DNA of 64,000 nucleotides from an uncultured Bacteroidales bacterium (GTDB lineage Bacteria > Bacteroidota > Bacteroidia > Bacteroidales > Paludibacteraceae). Below, piece after piece: positions 39,005 to 62,700 of this stretch (positions are counted from its first letter, which is position 1; every line of letters starts with the position of its first letter). Below the pieces are notes generated by a model. That model was not told the origin of the DNA. It saw only the letters and a list, made by a program, of their open reading frames with translations, and did no database searches. The DNA lies in contig ONJT01000003.1 in assembly GCA_900318245.1 (NCBI GenBank), positions 1 through 64,000 of the forward strand, written 5' to 3'. A program made the translations under genes and the position numbers.

Positions 39005-39089
39005 ATATTGTGTCATTTTTTCCACATTCTTGTGTATTTTTTGCCGTCCAATCCCCAATCGTTCTCCACACGCGCATGCGCGCTCCTTA

Positions 39090-50864: not shown

Positions 50865-51132
50865 TACAGGGCAACCCAATAGCCTATACCCGTTTTTTTA
50901 TGTTGACATAATGAAATAACTAAATATTGAAATGACAAACTTGGCAAAGTTGACAAACTTTACTTGGTCCTTTTTCCAGTCCAGCTTGTTCCTTTTTTTC
51001 TCAGCTTGTTCCTTTTTTCAACTACTTTTTTAGTTTATTTCAGTATGTCAAAGATCAATCTGTAATTTGTTTCAAGTGTCTTACAGTAACACTATTCCTT
51101 ATTTATCTTGCGCGTATGCGTATACGCGATAA
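50865..51132. other. Spacer with 20-bp repeats and a hairpin element
   Basis: No gene. It contains two copies of AGCTTGTTCCTTTTTT at 50984 and 51004, 20 bp apart (plus a degenerate one near 50963). At 51091-51130 it holds ATTCCTTATTTAT followed by the hairpin CGCGTATGCGTATACGCG just after the RES-like gene's stop. TATGTCAAAGATC here also occurs near 54936. Confidence 0.65.
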
Positions 51133-52221
51133 CTATTCTTTGATTCTTCGATACAAATTGGGATTTTCGAATCGTTTTTCCATCGCCCAAAATATTGTAT
51201 TTTCGTAATCTCCATCAGGAAATGGCAGATAACCTCTCAACGAGTCCTTATTATCTTCGTACTCTGTTGTTGTAGGTTCTGTTAGTTCGAACATGCCACA
51301 TAGTTTCGAACAATACCCTTCATCCTTAACATCATAGACAGGAATAGCAATGTTTTCAATCCTTCTGTAATTATTTCCGGTAATTTCCTTAAAATCATCT
51401 TCTTGTTGCGTGGTGTCATAAATCACCCCATCCAACTTTCTGTTACAAACATTATCCTTAACTATAAGGTGCATAACTAATTGCGGAAACACATATTCCG
51501 GGATATATACACCAGCCTTACTCGTTGTTTTAAATGAACAAGCAATAATTAATGGAAGTATTTGTAAATATTTCTTCAAACTATCTTCATTTTCAAATTC
51601 TCTTTTCAAGCGTAGATCTAACAGATTCAATGTATGCCCGTCGCATAATTTAAAGGCCGATATCATCAAGTTGTTTATACTTGCTCTTCTCATTTCTTCC
51701 CAACATACGTATATGGAACATCCCAAATACAAGCAAGGCATACCTATCATACTATATCTGTATGGTTTTATCAAGTCGCGTCGGTTGAATGGAATATGAA
51801 ACAACTCCTCCCTTGTAAATGTCTTATGCGTATCATTGCCTTCTACCCGTGAGCGCATGCGGTAGTATACATTATTTATCCCACTTGCTGTCTCAGAATG
51901 TGTTGACCAATTCTCTTTGTATTGATCCCACCAGTTATTTTCGATGCATTTAGCTATTGTCCCATTATTGTAGTCATTATACGTATTAAGAATATTATTA
52001 CAAAGATTACTAATTTCAGCAATAAAAGTACTATCAATACTGACGTTAAGAGGACGTTCTAACAAAAGGTCATTGTTTTTGCCCGTGCCATCATATGAAA
52101 TTCCATTAGAGATATATTCCTGATATTTTTCAAATGCAGTATGCAGACGCGTAGCAAAGGGCTTACTTTCAACCTTTGTCCACTCCTCAATTTGTGATAT
52201 TAAATCTTTATAATTACGCAT
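51133..52221 (-). CDS. RES-domain-like protein (possible NAD-acting toxin)
   Basis: The 362-residue protein has a helical N-terminal half. From about residue 119 the pattern VYYRMRSR ... FHIPFNRRDLIKPYRYSMIG, then PCLYLGCSIYVCWEE, resembles the RES fold, whose Arg, Tyr and Glu residues bind and degrade NAD+. Classic RES toxins are near 150-200 residues with an Xre-type antitoxin, so this is a longer form and no antitoxin is adjacent. It is the last gene of the minus-strand cargo block. Similarity is from pattern only. Confidence 0.5.
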   Translation of the reverse strand: MRNYKDLISQIEEWTKVESKPFATRLHTAFEKYQEYISNGISYDGTGKNNDLLLERPLNVSIDSTFIAEISNLCNNILNTYNDYNNGTIAKCIENNWWDQYKENWSTHSETASGINNVYYRMRSRVEGNDTHKTFTREELFHIPFNRRDLIKPYRYSMIGMPCLYLGCSIYVCWEEMRRASINNLMISAFKLCDGHTLNLLDLRLKREFENEDSLKKYLQILPLIIACSFKTTSKAGVYIPEYVFPQLVMHLIVKDNVCNRKLDGVIYDTTQQEDDFKEITGNNYRRIENIAIPVYDVKDEGYCSKLCGMFELTEPTTTEYEDNKDSLRGYLPFPDGDYENTIFWAMEKRFENPNLYRRIKE

Positions 52222-52345
52222 TCCTACTAATTATTCTGTTGTAGTGTTACTATTAGGGTAGAATACTAAAAAAACTGTTTGTGTATTTAGTTTATTTTAA
52301 TTGGTGATTAAAGGATAATTTAATGTCCTTTAACCGTGAATAGCC

Positions 52346-52978
52346 CTACATAATATGCACAGGCCATAATTTTTCTACAAATCTATAATTATCCATAATT
52401 ATGAACTTTTCTACACCAATAGCGTTGATTAGATTTTGAGGGAAACGCGCAACGTCATTATACTCCTTTACTACAACAAATTCCACATCATCTAATAAGA
52501 ATGGATAATCATGAGGGACGCGCCATTCTCGCTCATGACTAAAATCAACAGTCGGGAAATATTGCCCTTTCATGTGATTCGGACGATATTGCGGAGAGAA
52601 CGGAGTTATAAAAGGCCATACATGCTTATCAAATTGTCTTTTAGACATTTGTTTTTTTAGATGGTCTGGACGCACATAGTATGCAGGTCCACCATGCTTA
52701 ACAAAAACAGATTTTTTAGAGAAACCTACACCATATGGAGAGTATTGCTGTGTGTGCGCCAATAAACTAGACCATGGACATTCTGTCATACACACAGCAT
52801 GTGCACCGGTCCATGGCATGGTAGACGCATTAATAATTTGGTTATTCAAGATTGATACCAAACGGTCAAAAGCACTCATCTGAGCAAAAGGTCTGGCAGG
52901 ATTATCCTCTGCTGCAGAACATAATGCTCCGTCTTTAGTAAAATGCGCTAAATAATTCGAAAAATCCGGTCTGTTCAT
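52346..52978 (-). CDS. AbiGi/DUF2971-like protein
   Basis: The 210-residue protein has the pattern YLAHFTKDG, NNQIINASTMPW, AVCMTECPWSSLLAHTQQYS, YGVGFSK and HEREWRVP. This matches what I know of the DUF2971/AbiGi group tied to abortive-infection systems and other defence islands. The exact role in defence is not established here. Upstream it carries a leader with ACACGATAAAAGGACGAAAAG, close to those of other cargo genes. Confidence 0.6.
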   Translation of the reverse strand: MNRPDFSNYLAHFTKDGALCSAAEDNPARPFAQMSAFDRLVSILNNQIINASTMPWTGAHAVCMTECPWSSLLAHTQQYSPYGVGFSKKSVFVKHGGPAYYVRPDHLKKQMSKRQFDKHVWPFITPFSPQYRPNHMKGQYFPTVDFSHEREWRVPHDYPFLLDDVEFVVVKEYNDVARFPQNLINAIGVEKFIIMDNYRFVEKLWPVHIM

Positions 52979-53044
52979 AATCTTTTCGTCCTTTTATCGT
53001 GTTGACTTCACGTTTAAAGTGTTAATTATGATATTATATTTGAG

Positions 53045-53584
53045 TTAACAATTTTCTTTGATATCTATGAATACTTCAATTGCTATTCGTTGTGCATCTT
53101 CAACTCGTTCGTCTGCACTTGGTTTCCAGTTCTTACAATACCAACGGTAAGTGTGCATCCGATAGTTGTCAAGAATATATTTGCGTACACCGCCGGGCGT
53201 TCGGTTGTATCTGGAGCAACAAATAACATGGTCTACTTCGTTAAGTTCCGCCCAGTGCATATTGTTCTTGAATGTAATAAAGTCATCTTCGTTAAATGGG
53301 TTTTCTTCGTCAATATCACAGCCCAAAGCGTCTCCTGCACTAAAAATAGCTATCTTCTTCCCTTTATATTCAAATAGTGCTCGGAAATCTGAAAATAACA
53401 TCATTGCCGATGTCGCATGACTTGTTCTAATCTGTTCCAATACTTCAGAGAATGTGGGTCTATTTATTAATGACTTCGGCACAAAATCAATCTCTCGTCC
53501 CGCATTCTTCAGTAGGTTATACACCAACCAAGCGGTATGTGTCTTCCCGCAATTCTGTACTCCATATATTACAAATAATGCCAT
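53045..53584 (-). CDS. Small P-loop NTPase of unknown family
   Basis: From ATG at 53584 it encodes 179 residues with Walker A GVQNCGKTHT at about residues 8-17 and a likely acidic Walker B near AIFSAGD. A GTG start upstream at 53614 is possible but would translate the shared leader. It resembles small kinase-like or GTPase-like proteins; the family is not recognised. The leader GTTGTGCCCGACACGGATGAG lies directly upstream. Confidence 0.65.
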   Translation of the reverse strand: MALFVIYGVQNCGKTHTAWLVYNLLKNAGREIDFVPKSLINRPTFSEVLEQIRTSHATSAMMLFSDFRALFEYKGKKIAIFSAGDALGCDIDEENPFNEDDFITFKNNMHWAELNEVDHVICCSRYNRTPGGVRKYILDNYRMHTYRWYCKNWKPSADERVEDAQRIAIEVFIDIKENC

Positions 53585-54064
53585 ACTCTTTTCCCCCTCA
53601 TCCGTGTCGGGCACAACTATTATTTGTTTTCGTTACAATTAATATACTTCCGTTTTTATTTCGTTTTCGGTCCATTTAAGGACCAATGTAGGACAATTAT
53701 AGGACCTATCGCGTATCCTGCACCACCTTATATATAATATGTATATATCCCGTGATTTTCACTCTTTCATCCTTTCAATCCTTCATCCTGATATTCCTTT
53801 ACTTGTTCCTTTTTTACTAAGCTTGTTCCTTTTTTACTCAGCCTGTTCCTTTTTTCAACTCTTTCCCCACACTTTCACTCTCCCCGCATAGCCTGTTCCT
53901 TTTTTCATTTCATCCCCCCTCATTCTCTAACTCACTCATTCACTAACTCCCTTGTATAGCCTGTTCCTTTTTTGACCCGCTCACTCTGCCCAACATTCCC
54001 TCACCCCGCACAGCCTGTTCCTTTTTTCATTTCATCTCCCCTCATTCTCTAACTCACTCATTCA
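53585..54064. repeat. Repeat-rich spacer: 11-bp GGACC array and CCTGTTCCTTTTTT array
   Basis: At 53669-53712, GGTCC and three GGAC(C/A) motifs recur exactly every 11 bp, upstream of the P-loop gene. From 53802 on, CTTGTTCC/CCTGTTCC plus a T-run recurs at 53802, 53822, 53842, 53892, 53960 and 54014. The stretch 53882-54003 is a 122-bp unit repeated at 54004-54125 with few changes. No gene is seen. Confidence 0.75.
53590..53613 (-). promoter_or_regulatory. Shared cargo leader, copy at the P-loop gene
   Basis: On the minus strand, GTGCCCGACACGGATGAGG is followed by GGAAAAGAGT and the ATG. Matching copies stand before the genes at 56607, 57528 and 58229. Confidence 0.7.
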
Positions 54065-54355
54065 TTAACTCCCTTGTATAGCCTGTTCCTTTTTTGAAAG
54101 TTCCTCCAAATACTCTAAACCATCTGCCGTCAATCGGTACGTCTGTTCCGGTATACTTGGGTGCCCGGGGCATTGCATGGTTACCAATCCTCTCGCTCTG
54201 GCCGGCTTCATGTAGTTGTCATAGAAGTTTCTCCGCGATTCTTGTCTCAATCCCAAAGCCGCCATCAACTCACGTCTCGGATGTACTCTTTTCCCCATTA
54301 CCATCACCAATCTCTGCACCCTCTCCTCTATTTTAACTTTCGTATTCATTCTCAA
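54065..54355 (-). CDS. Orphan winged-helix domain protein
   Basis: The 96-residue protein has a winged-helix pattern: RRELMAALGLRQESRRNFYDNYMKP (two helices), then GLVTMQCPGHPS and QTYRLTADGLEYL (wing and last helix). It matches the C-terminal domain of DUF4062/AlbA_2 (Schlafen-like, RecG-annotated) proteins, the family of the gene at window start. It stands alone here, so it is a remnant or a stand-alone regulator. The C-terminus SKKEQAIQGS is encoded by one unit of the AAAAAAGGAACAGGCT repeat. Confidence 0.6.
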   Translation of the reverse strand: MRMNTKVKIEERVQRLVMVMGKRVHPRRELMAALGLRQESRRNFYDNYMKPARARGLVTMQCPGHPSIPEQTYRLTADGLEYLEELSKKEQAIQGS

Positions 54356-55007
54356 GCCTGTTCCTTTTTTTGCTTTAGCTTGTTCCTTTTCGGACTAAGC
54401 TTGTGTCTGTTTCCAACTCAACTTCGAGGTTCTTTCCTTCCAATCGTTAGTTATTAGTTATATCTTCGTTCGTTATTCGTTAGATATTCAGCTACCCACA
54501 GACTACTGTCACCTGCCCCATTCAACGCAAAAATTGGCTTTGCACTTTTTGCACTTTCTGCATTTTTTTGCGAAAAATGTCGTGTCGCTTTGTCGCTTTG
54601 TCGCTTTCTTTTTTTTTGTGCGTGAGACTGTTGAAACTTTGAGACTTTCGCACATATCTCTCTCATTTACAAGCCCTTACAAAGTCTCATCAAAGTTTCA
54701 AAGTTTCAAAGTTCCATCTTTTTTCTTCTTTTCAATAGCGACATAGCGACATTATTTATGTTCGTTTCTCGGTCTTGTGTCGGTCTTCTCCCGCTCTTCG
54801 GTCGGTGGCACCTTGTTCCTTTTTTGACATCATGAATCCATAAATAAAAAAGCGACAATTCACTTTCGGAATAATCGCTTTCACAATCAGCCAGTTGGTA
54901 AATCGCATTTTTCGATTATTCCTTATGGAATCACTATGTCAAAGATCTCTTGCTTATTGGCTATTACGGATGATAGTATTTGCATTTGCGGAAATAATGC
55001 CCAAAAT
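54356..55007. other. Low-complexity spacer left of the invertible segment
   Basis: No firm gene apart from the small frame noted at 54923-55057. It contains three more units of the TTGTTCCTTTT repeat (54357, 54379, 54812), three TCAAAGTT octamers at 54690-54713, and a hairpin pairing AAAGCGA with TCGCTTT near 54850-54883. Confidence 0.6.
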
Positions 55008-55057
55008 AAACGGTCTTTTAATTTGAGCCTATCTCTCATCCTTTCGCTCTTGCCCAT
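54923..55057 (-). CDS. Small ORF crossing the invertible-segment border (44 aa)
   Basis: Translation from ATG at 55057 gives MGKSERMRDRLKLKDR, then LFWALFPQMQILSS and a stop at 54923. The first 13 codons or so lie inside the invertible segment and the rest outside. In the opposite orientation the same start would join codons FVYTSNWV and stop near 55287. Whether it is translated is unknown. It lies about 57 bases downstream of the invertible promoter. Confidence 0.4.
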   Translation of the reverse strand: MGKSERMRDRLKLKDRLFWALFPQMQILSSVIANKQEIFDIVIP

Positions 55058-55262
55058 AAATTATCTTTTTTTCGCGTATATATGTGCGATTGCGAGATTA
55101 CAAAACAGCCCATTCGACTGCAAAATTACACAAAAGTTTCGATATATACAAATATATTTTGTATATTTCTATCAAAAAAGTGATTTTCATCAATTATTCC
55201 ACAAAATACACCATATTCGTCAATTTTTCCACATTTGCATGGCTCAAATTAAAGGACCGTTT
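55008..55262. promoter_or_regulatory. Candidate invertible promoter segment with 22-bp inverted repeats
   Basis: The right arm GGCTCAAATTAAAGGACCGT plus TT at 55241-55262 matches the reverse complement of the left arm at 55008-55029 in 21 of 22 positions. The 211 bp between them hold a promoter pointing left. Inversion would point it right, into the serine recombinase gene at 55431. The layout resembles Mpi-type invertible promoters of Bacteroides. Confidence 0.7.
55121..55151 (-). promoter_or_regulatory. Consensus promoter inside the invertible segment
   Basis: On the minus strand it has TTGTATATATCG and TAATTTTG in a 31-nt span, identical in layout to the housekeeping promoters of this window. 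As drawn, it fires leftward. Confidence 0.75.
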
Positions 55263-55412
55263 TGTTTATACCAGCAATTGGGTATAAATCCGTAGATTAA
55301 CGTGGGAGGAAGGTAGCCAGCCGACGGTCGTGCATACCAAGGAAAACACAAAAAATGAACGTTAAAGGAGACGAAACGATCTTTGAAGTATAGATATATG
55401 CGAAATTAGCAG

Positions 55413-55420
55413 TACCTTTG
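55413..55420 (+). promoter_or_regulatory. -7 box of the recombinase gene, weak -33
   Basis: TACCTTTG ends 10 bases before the recombinase ATG. At the usual -33 position (55390) the bases are ATA instead of TTG. This would be a poor promoter on its own, which fits extra drive from the invertible segment. Transcription from it would leave almost no leader. Confidence 0.5.
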
Positions 55421-55430
55421 CGGAAAAAAT

Positions 55431-56039
55431 ATGAGGAGGTATGGTTATATTCGCGTGAGTAGCGACAAACAAACAGTTGAGAACCAGCGGTTTGAGATCA
55501 ATCAGTTTTGCCAACAGGAAGGATTGACTATTGACGGATGGATTGAAGAGACGGTTTCCGGCACCAGGACTTACACCCAGCGCCGGCTTGGAGAGTTGAT
55601 ACAACAGACAGGCGAAGGAGATATCATCATCTGCAGCGAGTTAAGCCGGCTGGGGCGCAACCTGTATATGATTATGGAGATTCTCAGCAAGTGCATGAGT
55701 CGCGGCTGTCACGTATGGACCATCAAAGACGGCTATCGCCTGGGAGATGACATCCAGTCGAAAGTGCTGGCTTTTGCCTTTGGTCTCTCGGCAGAGATAG
55801 AGCGTAACCTCATCAGTCAACGAACCAAAGAGGCGTTAGCCCGCATGAAGGCGGAAGGCAAGCATCTCGGTCGTCCGGAAGGCAGAAAGACTTGCAAGAA
55901 AGCGCTCGCGCTCTATCCGCACGAAGCGTTTATTCTGCAAGAACTGGAACAGGGCACGCCTATACGGGAGATAGCCCGGAAGCTGCATTGCAGCCGCAAC
56001 ACGGTGAGTAACTACATTCAAGCGTATCTGAAAGAGTGA
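55431..56039 (+). CDS. Serine site-specific recombinase (invertase/resolvase family)
   Basis: The 202-residue protein is a small serine recombinase. Residues 4-10 (YGYIRVS) carry the catalytic Ser10, with Arg residues in SELSRLGRN (about 66-73). The long E-helix region follows (GLSAEIERNLISQRTKEALA), then a C-terminal helix-turn-helix (REIARKLHCSRNTVSNYIQ, about 177-198). Length and order match DNA invertases such as Pin, Hin and Bacteroides Mpi. It should cut and flip DNA between inverted sites by a 2-bp staggered break. The adjacent inverted-repeat promoter segment is the obvious substrate. Confidence 0.93.
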   Translation: MRRYGYIRVSSDKQTVENQRFEINQFCQQEGLTIDGWIEETVSGTRTYTQRRLGELIQQTGEGDIIICSELSRLGRNLYMIMEILSKCMSRGCHVWTIKDGYRLGDDIQSKVLAFAFGLSAEIERNLISQRTKEALARMKAEGKHLGRPEGRKTCKKALALYPHEAFILQELEQGTPIREIARKLHCSRNTVSNYIQAYLKE

Positions 56040-56075
56040 AAGGTGAAAGGGCGAAGGGTGAAAGAGTGAAAGAGC
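56034..56075. repeat. Heptamer array (GGTGAAA) at the recombinase stop
   Basis: AGTGAAA, GGTGAAA, GGGCGAA, GGGTGAA and further degenerate units run across the recombinase stop codon into the spacer. Confidence 0.75.
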
Positions 56076-56606
56076 TCACACAATGATGTGCGAGAAGAGA
56101 AAGACGGGAAAAGAGAAGCGAATTGGCAAGGCATTGCCTCTAACTTGCCTCTGAATTGCCTCCGATATCTATTTTGTAAAGAGCATGTATTGAACAAGTT
56201 ACAAATCATTGGAATTGGGGACATTTGATGGTAAGCAAAAATATTAAAAAGTATAGTTATCTCTCGAGAATGGACCGAGAATAGATCGGAAAAACATATA
56301 ACCGTGATGCCGACACGATAAAAAAGGGCGAAAGTGCCAAGTAAAAAAATAGTCAAATATATAATAAGTAAAAGTGCGCACGGAAGAGTGCAAAAAAAAG
56401 ATGGCAGAAGAAAAGAAAAATGATGATTGCTTAGTGTACTGCGTATAGAGATGGTGGTCCAATAGAGACATTTATAAATAAATTTAACATGACTCATCGA
56501 ACCAACCATCGACTCAAAAGAGTCCAATCAATCATCTCAAAATGAACAAAAATACCAAAAATATATAATAGTTGTGCCCTACACAGATGAGGGGGAAAGA
56601 TAGAAG
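56040..56606. other. Spacer with two decayed copies of the cargo leader
   Basis: No complete gene. Near 56311-56340, GCCGACACGATAAAAAAGGG matches the cargo leader. Near 56372-56421, GTGCGCACGGAAGAGTG precedes ATGGCAGAAGAAAAGAAAAAT, which repeats the first codons of the gene at 57528, and then stops soon after. The stretch looks like remains of earlier cargo genes. At 56570-56606 stands the intact leader of the next gene. Confidence 0.6.
56570..56606 (+). promoter_or_regulatory. Shared cargo leader, copy at the RhuM gene
   Basis: GTTGTGCCCTACACAGATGA followed by GGGGGAAAGA stands immediately before ATG 56607. Confidence 0.65.
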
Positions 56607-57476
56607 ATGGCAGAAGAGATGCAAACATATGGTCAAACAAACGAATCTGTAGTTATATACCAAAGCGCGGATAACGCGGTTCGTTTGGATGTGCAACTCG
56701 CCGAAGAAACGGTTTGGTTGAGCCAAAAGCAGATGGCACAATTGTTCGACACTACTCCACAGAACATCACTCTGCATATAGGTAATGTTTATAAAGAGCA
56801 GGAACTAACTCAATCAGCAACATGTAAGGATTTCTTACAAGTTCAAATCGAGGGAGGAAAAGAGAAACGTCGTTTAACCAAGTTCTATAACTTGGATGTG
56901 ATTATCTCTGTAGGCTACCGAGTAAAGAGTAAAAGAGGTACCCAATTCCGCCAATGGGCGACAAAGGTGCTTAATCAATATATACGCCAGGGCTATGCGG
57001 TAAGCAATCGATTCGAGAAATTGGAGCAACGGATGACAAACGTAGAGAATCAAATCGAATCTTTTGTGCATGCTGCACTTCCTCCCAAAGAGGGAATCTT
57101 TGCGGACGGACAAATATATGATGCATATGAGTTTATTGAGCGTTTGATTAAGTCCGCAAAGAAATCGATTTTGCTGATAGACAATTACGTAGATGAGTCG
57201 GTATTGACAATGCTGAGCGGAAAAAACAAAGGAGTACAAGTGGATATTTATACCAAAGAGTTGTCGAATGCGCTGTTACTGGCACAAGACAAGTTTAACA
57301 GCCAATACGGAAACTTATCTCTCCATCAAACGAACCGCGTGCATGATCGGTTTATGATTATTGACAACCAAACGATTTATCTCATCGGAGCATCATTAAA
57401 AGATGCGGGCAAACGGCTCTTTGCCTTCACCAAGATGAGCGCCACGCATATTGAGGAGCTAAAGAAACTATTGTAA
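56607..57476 (+). CDS. RhuM-family protein with C-terminal PLD-like domain
   Basis: The 289-residue protein has an N-terminal RhuM region (EETVWLSQKQMAQLFDTTPQNI, a DNA-binding-like fold, then TKFYNLDVIISVGYRVKSKR). The C-terminal third (KSAKKSILLIDNYVD ... VHDRFMIIDNQTIYLIGASL) resembles a phospholipase D-like nuclease with a variant HxD motif. RhuM proteins are frequent in mobile and defence islands, and their function is unproven. A degenerate coiled region lies between them. Confidence 0.8.
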   Translation: MAEEMQTYGQTNESVVIYQSADNAVRLDVQLAEETVWLSQKQMAQLFDTTPQNITLHIGNVYKEQELTQSATCKDFLQVQIEGGKEKRRLTKFYNLDVIISVGYRVKSKRGTQFRQWATKVLNQYIRQGYAVSNRFEKLEQRMTNVENQIESFVHAALPPKEGIFADGQIYDAYEFIERLIKSAKKSILLIDNYVDESVLTMLSGKNKGVQVDIYTKELSNALLLAQDKFNSQYGNLSLHQTNRVHDRFMIIDNQTIYLIGASLKDAGKRLFAFTKMSATHIEELKKLL

Positions 57477-57489
57477 AAACTAATATCAA

Positions 57490-57527
57490 AAAAGTTGCGC
57501 CCGACACGAATGAGGGTAAAAAAGATT
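57490..57527 (+). promoter_or_regulatory. Shared cargo leader, copy at the membrane-protein gene
   Basis: GTTGCGCCCGACACGAATGA, GGGTAAAAAAGATT, then ATGG. The match to the other leaders begins sharply at GTTGCGCCC. Confidence 0.65.
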
Positions 57528-58181
57528 ATGGCAGAAGAAAAGAAAAATATAAATAATATGGAAAACGAAATGACATTTGAAGAGCGGCAGTATCAACGGT
57601 TGATCAATGCTAGGAACTTCCACTATGAGAACTTTAATAAGTGGTCGTTGTATTTCTATGCCATTATAGCGGCATTGTTCGCAGGTTATTATAGCTTGCG
57701 CGGACAAAATCAGCCCATTGATGAAATTATAAAATGGAGCATCCTTATTCTTGGCTATATAGTTAGCATGTGTTGCTATTTGTCTGGAAAAGGATACTAC
57801 TACTGGGAAATTAATTGGATTAAGCTCATTATGCATTATGAGAAACAAGTTTTGCCTCTAAAGAAAGAGGAAAGTGTATATTCGATTTTTGCTAACGAGA
57901 AAGGGTTGAGTAACTATTGGCGCATTATAAAAGGAGCTAATATCTCATCCTCAAAATTATCATTAATCGTGTCATTCTCTATTACATGCGCGTGGGCAAT
58001 TATGATTGCTCTGCAATTTGTACCAGAAAAATGTTGTTGCTGCTGTCGTGCTCTCGCTATAATAGGAGTACTTGTAGCAACTTGGCTTTTATCAGCATTA
58101 GTCGGAAAGTGGCTTCATAGTGATTTGAAAAATCATGATGATTTGGAGCTTCCTTTAAAGGAAGAAAGAAAAAATATTTAA
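57528..58181 (+). CDS. Four-helix membrane protein of a candidate effector pair
   Basis: From ATG at 57528 it encodes 217 residues. Hydrophobic segments lie at about 41-60 (WSLYFYAIIAALFAGYYSL), 70-92 (WSILILGYIVSMCCYLSG), 150-172 and 180-200, with a cysteine run CCCCC between the last two. The N-terminus and the 120-145 stretch (KKEESVYSIFANEKGL) are soluble. The family is not recognised with confidence; it resembles small multi-span proteins found beside toxin or defence effectors. The PIN-like gene follows after 47 bases. Confidence 0.6.
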   Translation: MAEEKKNINNMENEMTFEERQYQRLINARNFHYENFNKWSLYFYAIIAALFAGYYSLRGQNQPIDEIIKWSILILGYIVSMCCYLSGKGYYYWEINWIKLIMHYEKQVLPLKKEESVYSIFANEKGLSNYWRIIKGANISSSKLSLIVSFSITCAWAIMIALQFVPEKCCCCCRALAIIGVLVATWLLSALVGKWLHSDLKNHDDLELPLKEERKNI

Positions 58182-58187
58182 TTTAAC

Positions 58188-58228
58188 CTTAAAAGTGAGG
58201 CCTGACACGAATACAGGCGGGATGTGCT
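58188..58228 (+). promoter_or_regulatory. Diverged cargo leader before the PIN-like gene
   Basis: GTGAGGCCTGACACGAATAC followed by AGGCGGG shares GCCYGACACGAAT with the other leaders. Confidence 0.55.
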
Positions 58229-59188
58229 ATGATTGCAACAATTTTTGACACTAATGCTTACCTGAATATGGTAAGCCAAAAAGATTTTGAAGATGTGCGG
58301 GTTTTCGTACAACAACTTAAAGATGCTGAGTCAGCGCAGGGATACATGGCATATATATATCCTACTGTAGCGCAAGAATTACTCTCTCATCTTCTTGATA
58401 GACAACCTATTTGTAAACCCCAGTATAGCTATACGAAAGCATGTATGGCAATATATGCTCATTGTTCCGACAAAAAACAAAACAACTTTCGCATGGCACC
58501 TTTACATGAACTACATATTGCTCATGCTTATTGGGGAATAGATGTTAAACCATACATAGAGACTCAAACATCATTTTGTAATTTGTTGTTTGAAATAGAA
58601 CAACAACCGAATTGTAGAACAGTTGCTAAATACAAAAAACAACTAAAGCAAATTAAGGATTTTACACATGAAGCTGAAAGGGAATATGTTGCTAAAATTG
58701 AAGAAATTAAAGAAACAATATTAACGCAACACCCTCAATATAAAGATTGGGCATCTTTCTTGGCTGATCCAAAGAATCGGAATAAAGTCACAGGTTATGT
58801 CAGTAGCCCACAGTTAAAAAAACTTCTGGCCTCTGCTATGATTTATGCCGTGGCATTAGATTTACATAAAAAAGGTTACCCATTACCGAATGAACAGCAA
58901 ATAGAGCAAGCCGTAAACATATATTTACAGGATTGCGCAGCGTCGCTAGAATTACAGCAGATGCTATTTAGTCACTGGGATGATCCGAATTTTGATTTTG
59001 GGCGTCCAGATCGAGTAAACACAATTTGGGACTTAAAGATTTTGAGTAGCGTTGGGCATAAGTTAAATAATCAGGATGAGATATTATTAGTCACGAGTGA
59101 TAAAAAGATGATTGAAGCAGCTCAACGTACAATGCCTACAGGTAAAATTTGTACATATACGGATTATTTATCAAAGTTAGGACTTTAA
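58229..59188 (+). CDS. PIN-domain-like protein, 319 aa
   Basis: The N-terminus MIATIFDTNAYLNMV has the Asp (residue 7) and Asn of a PIN nuclease, with Glu in TVAQELLSHL (about 49). The matching acidic residues near the C-terminus lie in NTIWDLKILSS and LLVTSDKKMIEAA. The middle 200 residues are helical and include a charged coiled stretch (TVAKYKKQLKQIKDF). The split arrangement and length differ from VapC toxins (about 130 residues). It is probably an RNase effector or DNA/RNA-processing enzyme. Confidence 0.6.
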   Translation: MIATIFDTNAYLNMVSQKDFEDVRVFVQQLKDAESAQGYMAYIYPTVAQELLSHLLDRQPICKPQYSYTKACMAIYAHCSDKKQNNFRMAPLHELHIAHAYWGIDVKPYIETQTSFCNLLFEIEQQPNCRTVAKYKKQLKQIKDFTHEAEREYVAKIEEIKETILTQHPQYKDWASFLADPKNRNKVTGYVSSPQLKKLLASAMIYAVALDLHKKGYPLPNEQQIEQAVNIYLQDCAASLELQQMLFSHWDDPNFDFGRPDRVNTIWDLKILSSVGHKLNNQDEILLVTSDKKMIEAAQRTMPTGKICTYTDYLSKLGL

Positions 59189-59761
59189 TAACATCCTTTT
59201 CGATCAAGGGATATTGGTTTATCCCTTGGTCACAAAATACAATATCGCGCATACACGTGCGTACATTATAAATAGTATATAATACAAAATACAATGAAAA
59301 CGAAAACTTAGCACTGTTTCGACCTTGTGGAAAAACGCTAAATGTATTGGGAAGTTGTGCTATCCTCTAATAAAAAGGGTAATGATTTTAATTATGATGA
59401 TTATGATAGCAATATACAACATAAATTCTAATCTGAATATGATTAGTGGCAAGATGATAGAAATTACGCAAGTGATTAACAAGGGTATTTCAGAGATGAA
59501 ACCAATATTAACGGAGAATTGGCGTGGCGTGCGTATGGGGAATAACGGCACATTTCGACAATCCAATTTAGCGAATACCACTCGGCAAGGTGATATGCAC
59601 GCTCCCTACAAGGGATGCCAATTCTCCACCATATAGTGCAAGGCGAAACACTATAAAAATCGTCAGGGTAGAGCGCGGTGAAACGCCATCTGCTCACAAA
59701 ATATAACAACACACACGCGTGTGTAGATATAAATAAGGAATAATATAAAAATCAAAATAAC
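59189..59761. other. Spacer with hairpin elements and the right leader repeat
   Basis: It holds the alternating purine-pyrimidine hairpin near 59246-59262 (CGCGCATACACGTGCG) followed by TATAAATAGTATATAATAC. A 103-codon frame at 59325-59636 is not convincing. At 59693-59761 is the right copy of the long leader repeat, ending at the surface-protein start. Confidence 0.6.
59205..59228 (+). terminator. Hairpin after the PIN-like gene
   Basis: CAAGGGAT (59205-59212) pairs with ATCCCTTG (59221-59228). There is no clear T-run, so it is a possible terminator only. Confidence 0.5.
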
Positions 59762-59797
59762 ATGAAAAATTTATTTACTTATTTGAAGACTTTGTGG
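59693..59797 (+). repeat. Right copy of the long inverted leader repeat
   Basis: CTCACAAAATATAAC, then CACACACGCGTGTGTAG, ATATAAATAAGGAATAATAT and codons MKNL-TYLKTLW. It is the inverted counterpart of 50755-50864. Confidence 0.8.
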
Positions 59798-62700
59798 GGG
59801 GCGTGGGGAAACCTACAGAGTAAGGACGTAAGACATGACCGTCGGTTGACCGTCGGCTCACCGTCGGGATTGGACGCAAAATGGAAGCAAAATCCATTCA
59901 TGCGTTTTGCAGTAGTGTTAACCTTAATCTTCACCATCGGCATCGGAAATGTGTGGGGAGCAGCGGATTACATTATTCCAAAATTATATTTGTCCTCAAA
60001 AAACACAGTATCTGGTGGTACGGGATGGAATTTTACAAGTGCGGCGGCAAATAATGCCAAGACTGATTATTGGAAAATGGTCAGTAGTAGTTCTGTAGTC
60101 ACATCTCCGGCTTTTGATATTTCTGGTTACACTAGTGTTACCATATCAATCAAATGGGGAAGTTATAACACATTTAATGCAACAAAATGTAATGCAACAG
60201 TTAAAATTTCAACCGCAGCGGGTACGTGGACTACCTTAGGGACAACCGGCTTAACGGGTGCTAATACGAGCGGCAAAGTATGTACTTTCGAAAATGTAGA
60301 AGAGTCATCCTCCTATTCAAGTGCTCAAATCCAGATTTCCACTCCAAGTGCAGGTGATGATGTCGGAGGTCGGTTGTATTATGTAGAAATCAAAGGAGAA
60401 GCCGCCGGTTCTTGTGATGCTTCGCCTACGGTTGGTAATGCTGCCTACAATGGCGCACTTGTATATTCCACGACGCCTATGACAGTTCCTATTACTTGTC
60501 CATCCATAGGTGCCGGATCAAGTTGCGAAATTAAAGATTACGGTTTTGTGTGGAAAGCAGGTGGTAATCCTACTATCTCGAACAACAAGACACAAATAGG
60601 TACAGATAACCACTCAACAGCATTTAACGGCAATATTTCCGGTACGTTTGCCGCAGGAACGACTTATTATGTCAAAGCATATGCGATAAACAACGGAGAC
60701 AACACCATACTAAGTTCAAGTGCCTATAGTTTTACACCTCGCAGCATAACTTTTAACTCCAACGGAGGAAGTTCCGTAAGCACCATTTTGGTTATTAGTG
60801 GCAAAGCAGCCAGTCAACCGGCAGATCCGACAAAGGATGGTTACATCTTTGGCGGTTGGTACACAGATTCCGGGCTTGGTACTGCAGTTAATTGGTCTTC
60901 TACTATAACCTCAAACAAAACATATTATGCTAAATGGATAGCTGAACCAACGATTACAATCAGCGAAACTTCGCGTGCTTTCGGTGACCGAAAAGTGAAT
61001 GGTGGACCTTACACAATGACCTTTAATGTCAGCGGTGCTAATTTAACAAATAATATAAGTTTGTCGATAAGTGGTACAAATGCAGGAATGTTTTCTGTAA
61101 CACCAAGTTCGCTTACTCAATCGGCAGGTTCTGTTTCTTCGACCGAGATAACTGTTTCCTACTCGCCGACAAGTGCAGGTTCACATAGTGCCACAATCAA
61201 TATAACCAGTAGCGGTGCAACGAGCAAGACGGTTGCTTTGAGCGGTACCGGTAAATGGGAAGTAACCTGGAGCAATAACGGTGCAACGTCAACCACGTTG
61301 GTGGAGAATAGTACAAAACCGACATTCCCGAGCACGCCGAGCAGTTGCGACGCCACCAGTACAACATTCATTGGTTGGGCGACGGCTGAATGGGATGGCA
61401 AGATTGCGAGCCTCGCGGGCAAAACGGTTCATACCTCCAACAGTACAATGTCCAACATCACTGCCAACGGAACTACATTCTATGCAGTGTTTGCAAAACA
61501 AAGTGGAAGCGGGGATCCGACTTGGGTTCAAACTACAAGTGTAGCAGTGGATGATGTGGTTGTGATAGCTGAGATTGATCATGTTGCAGATGGTAAAACC
61601 GGAAAAGAATTAGCTGGATGGGGAGGTTCAACTTATGGAACAGGAGCTGATTATAAGACCAATCCTGCTGGTACTATAACATGGACTGTTGTGACTGGTT
61701 ATAACAGTACTGGTGTTGCTTTCAAAAATAGTAGTAATAAATATTTGTATTGGAGCAGTAGTAATAGTTTGGATGTCAATAGCACACTTTCCGCAAATAG
61801 TTCTTGGAGTGTATCAACAGAAAGTTCCAGAGCTAAAATTCAAAATAATTCTACAACTACTCGCGTTATATGTTGGAATGAAGCGAATCCCCGATTTGCT
61901 GCATATGATAGCAAGAGCCATGGAGATGCAACGTCTTCAGGTGCGTCTACTAAATTCTACTATCCAGTATTTTATAAGCAGACACCAGGTTATACCTATT
62001 CCGATTATTTGACTACTTGCTGCACCGCACTTGGTTCAATTAATGGGTCGATTACGTTGACCAATGACGGTTGCGGGGCTGGAGAGTTGAAAGCTACGTG
62101 GAAGATGACCGCCACAACGGGTATCGCTTCGCAGACCTTAAAGGTTTATGACGAAAATCTGGATGAGGTAATAGCAAAACGAATTACCGATATTACTGCT
62201 TCAACCTCTAACCAGACAAAGACCATTTCCGGTTTAAATCCCTGTAAAGAATACTATGTTACTATAGAAAATGTTAGTAGCGGTGGCGAGTATTGTGCAC
62301 CTGGTGACCCGTGGGAATCTGATGTTGTAACAACTCTTGGCTATACGTTAAGTGTTACAAAATCTAATTGTTCGATAACTTCGGGTTCAGAACCTGCACG
62401 AATCTGCAATAATGTGTCAGTAACTTATGCGGCAGCGACAGGTTATGCGTTGCCGACTTCCATAACTGTTACTAACGCTGGAGCACAGAATACCGGTTGG
62501 ACATGGAATAGCGGTACAGGCGTATTGACGATTAACAAAGCCAATGTGACCGGTAATGTGGAAGTTACAATTACCCCGACTAGTGTACCACCTGTCATTG
62601 GCACAAATCCGGCAGATGCGAGTTACTATGTAGGAGACGCTCCTACGGCTTTGTCGGTAACCGCTACATTAGCCTCGGGAACGCTGACTTATCTATGGAA

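Follow-up and report, generated by a model that had tools for sequence, protein, structure and literature searches.

In the fim system of Escherichia coli, a tyrosine recombinase acts on a segment with a clear outside target operon, and the expression of the recombinase gene fimE depends on the orientation of the segment that it flips. Hin, of the Salmonella flagellar switch, lies within its own invertible segment (PMC5903667). Mpi of Bacteroides fragilis, encoded head-to-head with a tyrosine recombinase gene, inverts 13 regions (PMC4747536) and is described as a global enzyme (PMC4747536, PMC5903667). A survey of gut invertons reported that the invertases near invertons are generally non-regulatable, and are thus unlikely to be under the control of inverton promoters; a tyrosine-type group, 145, was its only potential exception (PMC11892184). 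Among the titles and abstract openings searched, mostly outside subscription journals, no Mpi-family invertase was reported under its own invertible promoter.

We analyzed a locus in a 64-kb window (the whole stretch of DNA under study) from a Bacteroidales assembly of 2.26 Mb in 56 contigs, 91.9% complete. As in fim, the expression of the recombinase would be tied to the orientation of the segment, but the recombinase is of the serine type and no outside target is conserved. The locus also resembles the Hin switch in coupling an invertase to a promoter segment, whereas its invertase gene lies outside the segment and no conserved gene was found within it. With B. fragilis Mpi it shares the NCBIfam invertase family and a promoter that has a TAnnTTTG -7 box and is flanked by inverted repeats, but the window has one local pair of sites, and the flipped promoter points at the invertase. 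Finally, the locus has a promoter-bearing invertible segment beside an invertase, like the surveyed gut invertons, yet here and in a set of relatives a serine invertase occupies a regulatable position, and these recurrent loci, with the invertase where it could be driven, contrast with the general conclusion of the survey (PMC11892184). We regard it as probable that the locus is an invertible promoter flipped by the adjacent Mpi-family invertase, which is the sole constant neighbour across the group. The element consists of the following features, in window coordinates:

55003-55029, plus strand: left recombination site (arm), with the 22-bp repeat at 55008-55029, from the repeat search; its inner half moves with the segment in the related locus L032
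55030-55240, no strand: invertible segment, 95.3% identical to L032 2601-2808 inverted and 51.3% identical direct
55121-55152, minus strand: promoter TTTG-20-TAATTTTG, directed leftward in the assembly, away from the invertase
55189-55203, minus strand: second, weaker motif copy TGTGGAATAATTGAT; L032 also has a second copy
55219-55233, minus strand: conserved motif TGTGGAAAAATTGAC, a putative activator site that begins 105 nt ahead of the -7 box
55241-55267, minus strand: right recombination site (arm), with the 22-bp repeat at 55241-55262, from the repeat search; C/T difference from the left arm
55413-55420, plus strand: intact -7 box TACCTTTG in the promoter of the invertase gene itself; TTTG absent at the usual -33 distance
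55431-56039, plus strand: Mpi-family serine invertase, 202 aa, the sole PF00239 match in the assembly

An earlier, sequence-only reading had proposed a 22-bp inverted repeat with one mismatch that encloses a promoter, next to a small serine recombinase of the invertase type with a poor -33 box of its own, and all of these points were borne out. The two arms matched at 21 of 22 positions, differing where the left arm has T and the right has C, and the repeat search extended them to 55003-55029 and 55241-55267, with an 89% match over 27 positions. The pair was unique in the window at a score of at least 17 and a spacing of 60-700 bp, while under the same repeat criteria 19 of 20 Markov-resampled windows lacked any pair and one contained a single pair. 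An imperfect dyad is visible by eye in the recombination sites, with its centre within AAACGGTC. The enclosed promoter is a single TTTG-20-TAATTTTG on the minus strand (55152-55121), and TTTG is the -33 element of Bacteroides-type promoters. The Bacteroides -7 consensus is TAnnTTTG (PMC4747536).

The repeat lies 168 bp upstream of the invertase gene, whose product combines the PF00239 catalytic (resolvase/invertase) domain, matched at 116 bits, with a C-terminal HTH_23 domain. The protein scored 304.1 bits against the NCBIfam model NF009949, "master DNA invertase Mpi family" (cutoff 272), and thus belongs to this family; its PDB matches include Tn3 resolvase, DNA invertases and gamma-delta resolvase. 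The invertase's own -7 box is good, without TTTG at the usual distance. The flipped promoter reads toward the recombinase with nothing between them, and would give a leader of about 270 nt. Indeed, no terminator was predicted between the arm and the invertase in the ten loci scanned, and in the loci screened 83-169 bp separate the arm from the start of the invertase. The assembly also holds six tyrosine-recombinase matches, and these enzymes could in principle perform the flip. A simple sigma-70/terminator scan gave fewer promoter-like sites in the real DNA than in shuffles, and an Rfam search of 51000-60000 gave four matches, none near the gathering score.

The closest named records are Bacteroidales metagenome-assembled genomes, several from the rumen or other ruminant guts and some assigned to Paludibacteraceae, and the host is a gut bacterium, probably of a ruminant. 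The invertase of L032 (RUG14494) was listed as 100% identical to that of the window, and was 99.5% identical in a direct comparison of the same locus (L117). Window 55008-55262 aligned to the opposite strand of L032 2831-2578, with a collinear right flank; in the same orientation, the right flanks were 97.2% and the near left flanks 82.1% identical, and the left flank of L032 diverged from the window beyond about 54955. As had been predicted, the segment is inverted between the two genomes and its promoter faces the invertase in L032. The segment was thus found in both orientations between inverted repeats, as in an inverton, in a direct view of the flip that comes from this one pair of close genomes. 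Since the arms have traded the variant C/T base in L032 and the outer flanks have kept their place, the strand exchange falls within the shared 8-bp core AAACGGTC. Serine invertases cut at a two-base centre, and the observed exchange is what such cutting would leave. We infer that the adjacent invertase performs the flip, with strand exchange at the midpoint of the dyad sites.

The recurrence of the element was assessed in a sample of relatives comprising the best 80 loci of one search and 80 more, which were most, but not all, of the matches of two others. The sample collapsed to 153 distinct loci, 149 of them with at least 400 bp upstream. As a result, 8 of the 149 loci passed a strict upstream repeat screen, compared with none of 447 resampled upstream regions. 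Five of these bear the window's element (L117, which is L032, and L039, L044, L052 and L065); L048 and L049 carry a comparable repeat that lacks the motif. The remaining locus, L091, was rejected as a copy because its arms are unlike, the motif is absent and there is no promoter match inside. L033 and L034, which did not pass the strict screen, carry a homologous element; since the two arms of each differ at 3-4 positions, these copies may no longer flip. With the window, itself outside the screen, there are eight element loci, in agreement with the earlier claim that the arrangement recurs beside related invertases. The promoter points toward the invertase in L032, L039, L044, L052 and L065, and away from it in the window, L033 and L034 (5 versus 3).

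When the 153 loci, some with partial flanks, were screened more widely, strong repeats were found upstream of the gene in 12, downstream in 12 and spanning it in 11, so that the family shows several geometries, of which the upstream position is one; most of these repeats were unlike the window's element. On a quick tree of 151 rows, the eleven rows marked for an upstream repeat, which include L091, L048 and L049, were clustered (4 changes versus a shuffled mean of 10.8, with 0 of 500 shuffles as low), and all five members of the window's clade have an upstream repeat. We conclude that the window's element is a genuine invertible promoter, with its own invertase as the recurrent target.

The distance from the start of TGTGNAAAAATTGAC to the -7 box was exactly 105 nt in all eight loci (the window, L032, L033, L034, L039, L044, L052 and L065). 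Their segments are widely diverged, yet TGTGNAAAAATTGAC is kept in all of them, and this pattern of conservation argues that the promoter in the segment is under constraint. Among the window and loci L003-L210, TGTGNAAAAATTGAC was confined to these eight loci and to further copies of them. The window's own genome (G000) contains 11 TGTGKAAAAATTGAC-type motif sites at up to one mismatch, including those at window 55219-55233 (minus strand) and about 39011-39026 (minus strand), with the others on contigs C9, C15, C20, C22, C24, C29 and C54. The genes behind these sites include those for a polyprenyl synthetase, an FMN reductase, PorP/SprF (type IX secretion), DapB and a DUF3078 protein. An exact match to the extended motif was present in 91 of 178 genus genomes, and the reversed pattern in none among the rows listed.

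The distances from the motif to the -7 box clustered in steps of about 10 bp over 14 gene groups, with 0 of 20000 random sets as good, a significance that is optimistic because one -7 box was picked by hand for each gene group. No -7 box was present at 15-130 nt from the motif in 17 of the 40 motif loci tested. Since the motif also precedes other promoters, in steps of about 10 bp, it resembles an activator site, and in the simplest reading it looks like the site of a transcription activator. The motif sites would then form a candidate regulon, many of them preceding the promoters of genes for the envelope and type IX secretion, and the exactly spaced motif would tie the switching to this candidate regulon in the genus.

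The invertase would be expressed more highly when the promoter faces it, and would thus control itself, probably from a weak promoter of its own and a stronger, activator-dependent promoter in the segment. In the "toward" state, the segment promoter would add to the weak one and raise the level of the invertase, which would soon flip the segment back to "away"; in the "away" state, the weak promoter would act alone and the state would last. Such a circuit would be an asymmetric, self-limiting switch, in contrast to a symmetric coin toss, and such feedback from the switch to its enzyme would change the expected dynamics to asymmetric and pulse-like ones. We propose only tentatively that the switch is closed and self-referring, with the invertase's own expression as its chief heritable output, under a putative activator that serves envelope and type IX secretion genes. 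It would then act as a signal-gated pulse generator or recorder, where cells in the "toward" state would respond to an active activator with a burst of invertase and flip out, as opposed to a simple on/off phase switch.

The exact spaced pattern of motif and promoter was present in 12 of 178 genus genomes, and eight of the 12 are the element loci. The other four are G003, G170, G153 and G040; at one mismatch, five more genomes matched, and G000 had two further such matches. In G170, the module lies between perfect 29-bp inverted repeats (L335 5248-5276 and 5521-5549); the 11 kb examined contain no invertase gene, and the single listed invertase match is on another contig. G003 has a form of the module with arms matched by eye only, where the screen gave none, and an invertase 58 kb away on the same contig. 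These two forms indicate that the module can exist apart from the invertase, without self-control. In G153, the promoter stands without repeats before a short accessory-type frame (read by eye), and the match in G040 falls inside a reading frame.

Alternatively, the segment might be a plug-in phase switch for whatever accessory gene sits to its left, with the reading into the invertase incidental, which we consider rather unlikely. The left side of the element contains the following:

54065-54355, minus strand: small gene of 96 aa, PF21247 (Fic-like C-terminal domain), beyond the predicted terminator; unlikely target
54846-54885 (about), minus strand: predicted intrinsic terminator, a hairpin followed by a T run (-14.3 kcal/mol, z -2.85, by folding)
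54923-55057, minus strand: 44-codon frame crossing the left arm, changed or lost in relatives; probably no gene

The promoter fires left as assembled, as the sequence-only reading had stated, but the targets named there, the 44-codon frame and the 96-aa gene with the Fic-like domain, termed "winged-helix" in that reading, were not supported in view of the predicted terminator, the unconserved frame and the lack of a shared leftward family. Likewise, the small frame does exist, but the frames differ between relatives and a conserved peptide was ruled out. The Fic-like gene is an unlikely target because the predicted terminator stands between it and the promoter. The hairpin has an internal loop and was absent from the stricter sigma-70/terminator scan, and no comparable hairpin near the arm was found in most relatives.

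In the relatives, the case for a leftward target comes from genes that start no more than about 450 bp from the arm in L032 (a 319-aa protein with no family over cutoff), L033 (a Bro-N gene), L034 (a 105-aa protein without a family) and L052 (a small gene and a PIN-domain gene). In addition, the leftward gene of L048, about 35 bp from the similar, motif-less repeat, encodes chitobiase-type repeats, taken to be those of a surface protein, and the repeat-free promoter of G153 precedes its short accessory-type frame. The leftward genes of L032, L033, L034, L052 and L048 could be real targets. However, a terminator is predicted ahead of the leftward gene in the window, the AAA/DUF4143 gene on the left of both L044 and L065 faces the wrong way, and no Pfam family is common to the leftward-facing neighbours of the element loci; for L039, the sequence covered on this side spans only 408 bp.

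The earlier likening of the locus to the Bacteroides Mpi switches held for the protein family, by the NCBIfam model, but not for the many targets, since no further promoters with the same repeats were found in the assembly. Only the two arms themselves matched the 21-bp arm pattern at up to three mismatches, and a 17-bp pattern gave four further matches, all single sites, against six for the reversed-pattern control. Furthermore, none of nine other motif sites tested in the window's own genome (ten exist; L246 was excepted) lay within inverted repeats at a score of at least 16. The arms were thus ruled out as a genome-wide family within the assembly, with one pair found; as this assembly is 91.9% complete, the absence of further sites falls short of full exclusion. 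It is therefore improbable that the locus is a remnant or an incomplete view of a global Mpi-type system, with further promoters absent from the assembly or unrecognised in it and the local element as one target among many, although the passing of the Mpi-family model, the 56-contig, incomplete assembly and the G170 module away from an invertase would suit such a system. That the repeat is static, with L032 an old rearrangement or an assembly error and no working switch, is hardly credible given the breakpoints within the arms, the swapped variant base and the varying orientation among more distant relatives, even though the comparison rests on consensus assemblies and L032 departs from the window in its left flank past about 54955.

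Viral relatives were sampled at 47 loci, of which 40 had 400 bp or more of upstream sequence, and each was judged by its single best repeat. In one of the 40, L255 (an IMG/VR contig), this repeat lies upstream of an Mpi-like invertase, with very similar arms (ACGGTCGTTTAATTTGCACC). The arms, at 529-548 and 1054-1073, enclose a 139-aa frame, with no promoter match; the frame appears repressor-like by eye. No viral contig contained an exact arm match, and a widened arm pattern matched two, L255 and, at a single site, L337.

Several further observations concern the surroundings of the element. A 41-bp stretch left of the element (54908-54948) recurs, reversed, to the right of the invertase in L032 (3950-3990), a hint that the locus has been rearranged on a larger scale. 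Repeated AGCCTGTTCCTTTTTT units lie left of the element at 53810-54412, and similar strings occur in islands of other genomes. A shared leader, GTTGTGCCCGACACGGATGAGGG, at 53595-53614 (minus strand), 56574-56593 (plus strand) and 57497-57516 (plus strand), runs into the start codons of accessory genes, which often begin with MAEE or MAEQ (by eye). Its three copies in the window's own genome (up to two mismatches) are all around the invertase, and it is present in 37 of 178 genus genomes at up to one mismatch. The RhuM/PLD protein encoded at 56607-57476 is near the PADLOC candidate family PDC-S05 (366 bits), and shares its starting residues with a frame at 5773 in L052.
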